From contig NZ_LRUE01000001.1 of NCBI RefSeq assembly GCF_001550135.1, positions 62,001 to 126,000 of the forward strand: 64,000 nucleotides of DNA, written 5' to 3'. The notes beneath the pieces are model-generated. The model made no database searches, was not told where the DNA came from, and was given only the letters and a program-made list of their open reading frames with translations. Positions 3,266 to 4,912 of the stretch are shown here, piece after piece; within the stretch, counting starts at the first letter, position 1, and every line of letters starts with the position of its first letter. Made by a program: the position numbers and the translations under genes. This DNA is from Pseudoalteromonas shioyasakiensis. GTDB taxonomy: Bacteria; Pseudomonadota; Gammaproteobacteria; Enterobacterales; Alteromonadaceae.

Positions 3266-4471
3266 TTACTCTGTAATCATTGCTACCCAGTTATCTAACC
3301 ATAGTGTCAAACCGTCGAGCATGGGTGATTTGTTATAGATAGCAAGCACCCCTTTCATTTTATGGCCTAGTAACTTCTCAGTAAACTGCAATGGACAACC
3401 TGCGTCTGTTAAGTGAGTTGATAAGGTTCGTCTAAAATCGTGCATCCTGAATGGCCTAACACCCTCAATTTCTTCATAGCATGTATTAGCTATTGTGCTT
3501 ACACTTGAGCCACTCGCTGGCTTATCCCCTCCACGGTTATGGAACATATGAATGAAGCCTGGACTAAGGTCTTTCAGATACTGAAGGTCATTAATCAAAA
3601 CATCTGGAATAGGCCTAACTATTGACTGTGTTTTCCCTTTAGTATTTTCACGCCTAACGGTGAATAACTTCTCTTCTAAATCAAAATCAGTTTTATGTGC
3701 TGTATACAGTTCACTAATACGACAACCAAAAATCATAGCGCATTTAAGGATAACTTTGTTTCTATCGGTAAGAGCAAGGTTGTCAATATTAGACCAAATA
3801 AGCCGGCACTCATGTATAGTTAAAAAGTGCTCTCTTGGTTGGTAGTCATTCGCAAAGTCACTAGGACGCAATGCTTCAAATTCAGCATTCGTTATATAAG
3901 CTTGTCTCAAGCAAAAGCGCAAAGCTGAACGCAGCTCAATGATAGAATTGAAAGCAAAGCCATCGCCACGGCCAGCAGCAATACTATCGGTATTCATTTG
4001 CTTAAATAAAACAGAAAAATGATGCTTACTAATTTCAGCAACATATTGATTGCGCCAATCGTCATTAATACAGGAAACGATACGGTTATAAATTTCTTGT
4101 GGACGATCTCGCATGTTGACGCAGTATTGTGCGTACCAAAAATTAATTGCGTCAATTAAGGTAGGGTTTTCTGTTTCAACAACGCTGACATTATTTACCG
4201 CTTTCATGTTCCGCGGATCTAACTCTTTTCTAACCTGAGTCATTTGACGTTCGCATTCCTCTCTTGCATTCGCCAAGCTCATTTCAGGGTATGTGCCTAT
4301 CTTATAACGCGCAGGCTTACCTTTTAGCCTGTACCTAATCTGAAACGTGATCTTTCCTTTTGGTGAAATACGCAGTGACAGATTATCACCATCAGATACT
4401 TCAGGCTTTCCGCTATAAGGTTTTCCACTTATGCTTTTAAGTTTTGCAGCTGTTATTTTCATTATGCTCAC
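3266..4471 (-). CDS. int: Tyrosine integrase of the P4/DUF4102 type
   Basis: This 401-residue site-specific recombinase should integrate and excise the element. The N-terminal ~90 residues are an arm-type DNA-binding domain (DUF4102: SGKPYSGKPEVSDGDNLSLR..), a core-binding domain covers ~100-200, and the catalytic domain follows. The catalytic set is complete: Arg251 (CRISEL), His344 and Arg347 (HDFR), His370 (LLGH) and the nucleophile Tyr379 (AIYNKS). The frame opens with GTG at 4471; an in-frame ATG at 4462 is an equally possible start. It lies next to the htpG junction and reads inward, as usual for this class. Four arm-site-like repeats lie just upstream. Confidence 0.93.
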   Translation of the reverse strand: MSIMKITAAKLKSISGKPYSGKPEVSDGDNLSLRISPKGKITFQIRYRLKGKPARYKIGTYPEMSLANAREECERQMTQVRKELDPRNMKAVNNVSVVETENPTLIDAINFWYAQYCVNMRDRPQEIYNRIVSCINDDWRNQYVAEISKHHFSVLFKQMNTDSIAAGRGDGFAFNSIIELRSALRFCLRQAYITNAEFEALRPSDFANDYQPREHFLTIHECRLIWSNIDNLALTDRNKVILKCAMIFGCRISELYTAHKTDFDLEEKLFTVRRENTKGKTQSIVRPIPDVLINDLQYLKDLSPGFIHMFHNRGGDKPASGSSVSTIANTCYEEIEGVRPFRMHDFRRTLSTHLTDAGCPLQFTEKLLGHKMKGVLAIYNKSPMLDGLTLWLDNWVAMITE

Positions 4472-4479
4472 GCTCTAAC

Positions 4480-4537
4480 TGTGTACCAAATGTGTACCAA
4501 ATTTGCCGTCTAAAATTTATGGTACACAGCTTGGTAC
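4480..4537. repeat. Cluster of four TGTACCAA-type repeats upstream of int
   Basis: Two direct copies of TGTGTACCAAAT lie at 4480-4491 and 4491-4502. Two inverted, shorter copies follow: TGGTACACA at 4520-4528 and TTGGTAC at 4531-4537. They occupy the space between the integrase start and the htpG junction, where arm-type integrase-binding sites or an integrase operator are expected. The direct copies are one helical turn apart (11 bp). The role is inferred from position only. Confidence 0.6.
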
Positions 4538-4670
4538 GCGCTTGCCAAGCATAACAGTTCTTTTTAGTCGTTAGTAGTGCGGATTAAAGATGGTTAAAAC
4601 CGGTGTAAGATATTGAATTTAGTATAATAAGAAGGTTTATTGCGGAGAGGTAATTAATTGTTCTGAATGA

Positions 4671-4751
4671 CTAAATTGAATGAATCATCAGGTTTAATAG
4701 TTGTTTGACTTCTGTTTGAAAGCCTAATGTTTCTTTTTGTGCTGCAGTCAT
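4671..4751 (-). pseudogene. htpG: 5' fragment of htpG (Hsp90), cut by the element
   Basis: From ATG at 4751, with GGAGA about 9 bases upstream, the frame reads [20 protein letters not shown] followed by LMIHS. This is the conserved N-terminus of bacterial Hsp90, HtpG (GFQ.[23 protein letters not shown]). Identity ends after His-Ser; the frame then reads Ile and TAG instead of the expected Leu-Tyr-Ser-Asn. It lies directly upstream of recR's end with its own heat-shock promoter, as in the gammaproteobacterial order recR-htpG. The remaining ~600 codons must lie beyond the left end of the element. Whether they are expressed cannot be seen. Confidence 0.88.
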
Positions 4752-4800
4752 TGTGTAAATCTCCAATTAACAAAGTGTCTAATCTGCACTATGACTCTTT

Positions 4801-4828
4801 ATATGGGGCAGGCTTTTTGAACTTCAAG
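4801..4828 (-). promoter_or_regulatory. Sigma-32 heat-shock promoter of htpG
   Basis: On the minus strand, CTTGAAG (4828-4822), a 13-base spacer and CCCCATAT (4808-4801) match the RpoH consensus CTTGAAA-N11-16-CCCCATNT at all but one position. It is placed about 50 bases upstream of the htpG ATG. Because the element has separated it from most of htpG, it now reads through the 26-codon stub toward the integrase gene 330 bases downstream. Confidence 0.9.
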
Positions 4829-4871
4829 GCAAAAAATTAAATTTACGGCTAAATTGGGGAGCTATACACAA

Positions 4872-4896
4872 AAAAGCCTGCTTAAAGCAGGCTTTT
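4872..4896 (-). terminator. Terminator after recR
   Basis: A 10-bp stem AAAAGCCTGC/GCAGGCTTTT with loop TTAAA, with an A-run on the plus strand that becomes a U-run after the hairpin in the recR transcript. It begins 17 bases beyond the recR stop codon. Confidence 0.85.
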
Positions 4897-4912
4897 GATA
4901 CCATTTTCGGTA

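Follow-up and report, generated by a model that had tools for sequence, protein, structure and literature searches.

A prophage of Pseudoalteromonas shioyasakiensis integrated in the 5' end of htpG appears to exchange the promoter and first codons of the Hsp90 gene

Integration in the 5' coding end of a conserved gene is known from the SXT/R391 integrative conjugative elements, which insert in prfC; as Hochhut and Waldor reportedly found in 1999, release factor 3 (RF3) stays functional there because SXT brings a new promoter and N-terminus of its own. SpyCI prophage-like chromosomal islands occupy the 5' end of mutL, where they part the gene reversibly from its promoter and leave it silenced in the lysogen. 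Here we describe an element integrated in htpG, the gene for the chaperone Hsp90, at one end of a 64,000-nucleotide window (the whole stretch of DNA analysed, positions 62001-126000 of contig C1) in the genome of Pseudoalteromonas shioyasakiensis (4.8 Mb, 25 contigs). The locus resembles SXT/R391 in its integration in a 5' coding end, but the target is htpG instead of prfC, both a podovirus-type prophage and a mannan-use island act as carriers, the promoter brought in is heat-shock-like, and element-free relatives carry an element-like end. With SpyCI it shares a 5'-end integration that parts gene from promoter, though a replacement start is supplied here where the gene is silenced there. While the 5'-replacement mode is already known from SXT in prfC, the interest of this locus lies in promoter exchange and in element ends that were likely captured.

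The original prediction held that a tyrosine-integrase element had cut htpG near its 5' end, leaving the first 25 or so codons and the promoter beside recR, and our data agree: a stub of 25 native codons, preceded by the boxes CTTGAA-N14-CCCCATAT, lies between recR and the integrase gene (Table 1). The 25 residues are the HtpG N-terminus, identical in 46 of the 107 genus genomes that were parsed and of the same native kind in 78 of them. The rest of htpG was expected beyond the element's far end, outside the window, and was located at C1 5109-7025; what stands at that left end, however, is a complete gene with its own in-frame start (MAEQKDITKHEFGSDTGKLLH) and not a mere remainder. It is the only htpG found in the genome. 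Neither result that would have contradicted the prediction occurred: there is no second copy elsewhere, and the left end is not devoid of htpG. An attachment repeat had been anticipated near 4674-4690, and the recombination core ATGATTCA falls inside that interval, with its second copy 59,729 bp away. The two junctions have no more than 8 bases in common around the crossover; the core covers codons 23-25, and the roughly 22 codons before it are element-specific. When the flanks are joined at the core they yield a native htpG start, identical to the empty site of a relative (G066/L030; labels beginning with G, L and C denote genomes, loci and contigs) at 456 of 460 bases, and to those of other relatives at 454 (L028), 452 (L027) and 407 (L017) bases. 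A broken or duplicated htpG is ruled out by the single complete gene, and an assembly artefact by recurrence of the arrangement in four other genomes (two of which, G101 and G037, are assembled in 2-3 contigs) and on viral contigs. With no tRNA in the window, a tRNA target was likewise rejected.

We interpret the element as carrying a 5'-replacement integration module, not an off-switch, and assign this reading a probability of about 0.85. Integrative elements of Pseudoalteromonas would share a module made up of a tyrosine integrase and an attachment site (attP) that brings along a promoter, a start codon and the opening codons of htpG. Crossover at the core inside htpG would swap the host promoter and N-terminus for those of the element, keeping one complete HtpG frame, and the host's own start would be parked beside the integrase and regained upon excision. 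Since excision would restore the native start, integration amounts to an exchange of two starts, one that would presumably be reversible in the cell. The arrangement at the locus is that of 5' replacement, with integration in the 5' coding part and an in-frame start supplied by the element.

The codons supplied by the element are under selection. Over eight element ends, the ratio of nonsynonymous to synonymous differences (pN/pS) was 0.26 for codons 1-25 and 0.14 for codons 9-25 (0.12 without G088), whereas the two out-of-frame readings gave 0.77 and 2.97. From residue 8 of E. coli HtpG onwards, the supplied part aligns with that protein without gaps. The original prediction had allowed as an exception that the element might supply a new promoter, and the far junction indeed has, besides the start codon and about 22 in-frame codons, the promoter-like pair CTTGAA-N15-CACAATAT upstream. 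Among 12 element ends collected, three of them near-copies of others (L193, L194, L197), CTTGAA occurs in all 12 and CACAATAT in 11, with CTCAATAT in G088. For these boxes, which were picked after the alignment was viewed, the best sigma-32-like score was 11 of 13 in each end, a value reached by 0.25-0.95% of 2000 first-order resamplings each. Set against the sigma-32 pattern CTTGAA(A)-N13-15-CCCCAT, the -35 box and the spacing fit and the -10 box fits in part; the supplied promoter may be active and sigma-32 dependent. The gene adjoining htpG at the left end lies on the opposite strand, so htpG cannot depend on read-through from that neighbour.

Several observations weigh against this interpretation. 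The same element ends reach sigma-70-like scores of 8-9 of 12, and their -10 box deviates from CCCCAT, unlike those of groES (CCCCATTA), dnaK (CCCTATTT) and hsp20 (GCCCATAA) in the source genome; heat induction may therefore be weak or absent. In the literature covered, the nearest printed parallel to the element box, which is unusual for this genome, is CCCCAATATA, given for predicted Shewanella trxA and lon sites in PMC3168786. The pN/pS values are pairwise sums that ignore kinship, and at codons 1-8 the ratio is 0.76, indicating little constraint. When compared with 50,697 phage records, the attP peptide matched 14, all with E of at least 1 and none convincing.

Recurrence within the genus extends the argument beyond one genome. 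Integrase relatives at 66-79% identity were found in four of 108 genus genomes besides the source (G057, G088, G037 and G101), and matches at 27-29% in four more. Each of the four closer integrases adjoins a native-kind stub that runs on for one or two more codons before it stops, and all four genomes have element-type htpG starts (in G088 the stub and integrase are on a different contig from htpG). A wider spread of the integrase was not borne out. Among 394 genomes drawn from the order, two had a hit to the integrase profile at 1e-60, the window's own and G392 (8e-61); the draw lacked the greater part of the genus and cannot serve as a census. A first scan of genome contigs for the integrase found none, and a second gave 17 loci, with only the two Pseudoalteromonas loci above 41% identity.

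Viral contigs add what appear to be excised forms. Integrases of at least 67% identity occur on 12 such contigs, half of which include the sequence before the integrase: three have attP (L168, L171, L176) and three a native stub (L169, L172, L177). The attP contigs carry a promoter, a start and 25 htpG codons to LMIH(S/C), followed by a stop one to two codons later, and their presence suggests excision of the element. Up to the core, L168 equals L197, the left junction (attL) of an integrated form, at 1026 of 1026 bases and diverges directly after it; beyond the core, L168 has 185 of 190 bases in common with L169. On one contig, 3300020385_000019, one end is of the attP type (L194) and another is a native stub (L172); excised and integrated forms may thus have coexisted in one sample, though a chimeric assembly is possible.

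The integration module is not confined to prophages. The G057 integrase (79% identical) lies on a mannan-use island of about 41 kb with a beta-mannan locus (G057:C11 ~55300-96500; L126, L147, L127) that is inserted in htpG and has the same kind of htpG start. In a comparison where all other targets were partial, the G057 element shared one of the 57 open reading frames (ORFs) of the window's element, the integrase, and G037 shared 41. Of the 27 other island ORFs of at least 120 aa, 18 were scanned. Ten scanned against Pfam gave a GH26 mannanase, a GH130 phosphorylase, a 2-epimerase, a TonB plug, an SSF symporter, a LacI regulator, a sulfatase and a phosphomannomutase, with two ORFs lacking a family; eight compared with PHROGs gave no structural phage family and one primase/helicase-like match. 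Because the island and the prophage share the integrase alone, the module appears to travel on unlike cargo, and restriction to one phage family is ruled out by the single ORF in common.

Element-like starts are more widespread than the elements. Our parser covered 107 of the 108 genus genomes (G014, with a GTG start of the NHAF type, was read by hand) and returned 78 native starts, 6 element ends, 21 element-like starts (12 of an NHQF type and 9 of an SFSAN type) and 2 of an SFGTDAK type. Native promoters are CTTGAA-N14-CCCCATAT in 73 genomes, with N15 in one, CCCTATAT in two and CCTTATAT in two, and their best match to the putative integrase arm site within 60 nt never has fewer than three mismatches. 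The six element ends (G000, G057, G069, G037, G101 and G088) have CACAATAT in five cases and CTCAATAT in one, and an arm site with 0-1 mismatch in all six. The 21 element-like starts all have CACAATAT, and in 19 the best arm-like match is at -29; all nine SFSAN genomes match the site exactly, and NHQF genomes show 1-5 mismatches (within 2 in 7 of 12), five being the level of native genomes. The two SFGTDAK genomes have the CCCCATAT box and no arm site. Outside the genus, 10 of 11 genomes are of the native type and G301 is NHxF; locus L204 of G301, from another genus of the family, combines an NHQF-type N-terminus (SEANQVENHQFASDNAKILQLMIHS) with a native-like promoter. A DNA pattern for the NHQF-type start had no match in the viral contigs.

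Among the 21 element-like genomes, an integrase match at 1e-30 was found in G027 only (27%, 1.2 Mb from htpG). The recR-htpG distance is 172-178 nt in seven of nine SFSAN genomes and roughly 1.7 kb in G106; for the eight NHQF genomes (of 12) whose regions were fetched it is 2.9-3.4 kb. Since recR lies so close by, 16 of the 21 have no element at htpG. Local BLAST of the regions from those eight NHQF and all nine SFSAN genomes, mostly 1.5-3.4 kb, found no leftover native stub except htpG's own start, though a decayed stub could escape such a search. In G031, five genes separate recR from an element-type htpG: two encode helix-turn-helix regulators with weak phage-regulator matches (L129 875-1804), possible element remains or ordinary genes, and three are without a match.

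Two histories can be proposed for these starts. We favour the first, in which they are captured element ends whose arm sites decay, and consider it probable. In the second, which is possible but rather doubtful, they are ancestral to their clade and the elements took attP from such hosts, as might be supposed from the basal genomes G070 and G060 (and G014, by hand) and from G301, where NHxF-type N-termini are paired with native-like promoters and an arm site within 60 nt is lacking; neither the basal SFGTDAK genomes nor G301 can be placed easily in a simple account. Such a donor origin is, however, opposed by the uniform CACAATAT box, by arm-like sites at -29 (the best site in 19 of 21) that come within two mismatches in all SFSAN and most NHQF genomes compared with 0 of 78 native ones, and by the preponderance of native types outside the genus. 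It is opposed also by the htpG-body tree, a single-gene tree of 43 rows (32 of the genus, with 7 of the 21 element-like genomes; some rows, SFSAN included, flagged for odd base make-up), which groups the NHQF hosts with the SFSAN rows in a single clade (support 100/99); its sister comprises two native rows and G088 (support for the join 99/97). Capture may have an intermediate in G069, whose element-type htpG (L145, G069:C15), on a contig other than that of recR, has a transposase-like gene upstream. There other DNA interrupts the native promoter beside recR (L188, G069:C46) just where the -10 box ends, and no integrase match was found at 1e-30. An element end possibly became fixed by loss of the rest, and the draft assembly permits other readings.

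Alternatives to the replacement module itself fare worse. The htpG piece might be a captured host scrap that serves as attP homology, its kept frame being incidental; imprecise excision can pick up host DNA, and just 8 bases at the crossover are common to both junctions, yet we regard this as very unlikely given selection on codons upstream of the core and the retention of two promoter boxes while spacer and flanks vary. That Hsp90 is switched off by integration and absent from the lysogen until the element excises, as was originally proposed, is very unlikely as well: htpG does lie 59.7 kb from its own promoter and the element's -10 box is not consensus, but at the far junction the frame is complete and has a start and promoter-like boxes of its own, the supplied codons are constrained, and the arrangement is repeated in five genomes of the genus.

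The replacement module may also tie the integrase to htpG regulation. As htpG, stub and integrase lie on one strand, a different promoter points at the integrase in each form: in the lysogen the displaced heat-shock promoter, in the attP form the htpG promoter of the element. The distance between core and integrase is 210-231 nt, or 216-231 nt counted to the integrase start, and a simple scan found no terminator-like hairpin between them in any of 11 junctions, Rho-dependent termination after the stub being possible. The two sigma-70-like sites that precede the integrase are no more than chance would give (1.6 expected). A tentative and on balance unlikely extension is that, with promoters swapped, heat could drive excision, and that an element end of this kind permanently became the htpG promoter and N-terminus throughout a clade (21 of 107 parsed genomes).

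The element itself is a podovirus-type prophage, judging from its terminase, portal, major head, internal virion and tail-fibre proteins, all encoded between the two attachment sites. Its large terminase is 54.8% identical to that of Aeromonas phage phiARM81mr; the temperate podoviruses of about 60 kb (phiARM81mr, Vibrio phage 1.205.O) have terminases 54-55% identical and a similar genome length. The TGTGTACCAAA repeat near the integrase recurs at the left end (L002 7044-7066). With at most one mismatch it has 5 matches in the window against 1.73 expected, a number that 6 of 100 shuffles also attained, so its arm-site role is argued from clustering at the element ends and not from repeat number. 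No Pfam family was found at 1e-3 for the small protein listed as possibly excisionase-like. Near the re-fitted htpG, the prophage also encodes a GAF-GGDEF diguanylate cyclase (L002 9513-10565, - strand) and a protein with weak similarity, under the Pfam cut-off, to SDH proteases of the ClpP type (L002 7530-8396, + strand).

Table 1 Features at the right end of the element and in the adjoining host flank (window positions)
Feature	Position	Strand	Remarks
Prophage right end	1..4688	.	Remainder at C1 6952-62000, left of the window; total 59,729 bp
Possible excisionase-like small DNA-binding protein, 66 aa	2150..2350	+	Weak PHROG match 'excisionase and transcriptional regulator', E 1.5e-4
Tyrosine integrase, Arm-DNA-bind_3 and Phage_integrase domains	3266..4471	-	Adjoins one attachment site
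Two exact TGTGTACCAAA repeats	4480..4501	+	Probable integrase arm sites (putative role)
Further arm-like sites (TGTGTACCATA; TTGGTAC on +)	4518..4537	-
Native htpG stub	4671..4751	-	25 native codons, 1 extra codon, then stop
Recombination core ATGATTCA	4681..4688	-	Other copy at C1 6952-6959; inside the Leu-Met-Ile-His-Ser codons
Native htpG heat-shock promoter CTTGAA-N14-CCCCATAT (consensus)	4801..4828	-	Now facing the integrase
Terminator-like hairpin downstream of recR	4872..4896	-
recR, host flank	4913..5521	-

Elsewhere in the window, a frame of tandem GKCGEGKCG(A/S)DKKAAKE repeats (10958-11497, - strand) lies upstream of two genes whose products are reminiscent of DUF692 and DUF2063 proteins.

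No report of integration in htpG was found in the open-licence PubMed Central (PMC) literature covered, PMC2147009, PMC12421847 and PMC3925955 included, an absence that is weak evidence. If the supplied promoter differs from the native one in strength or heat response, each lysogen would carry a rewired Hsp90, with its integrase under a host stress promoter. That a phage and a mannan-use island have this module in common shows that it moves apart from its cargo. The element-free clade, together with G069, suggests that a conserved chaperone can receive its promoter and N-terminus for good from a mobile element.
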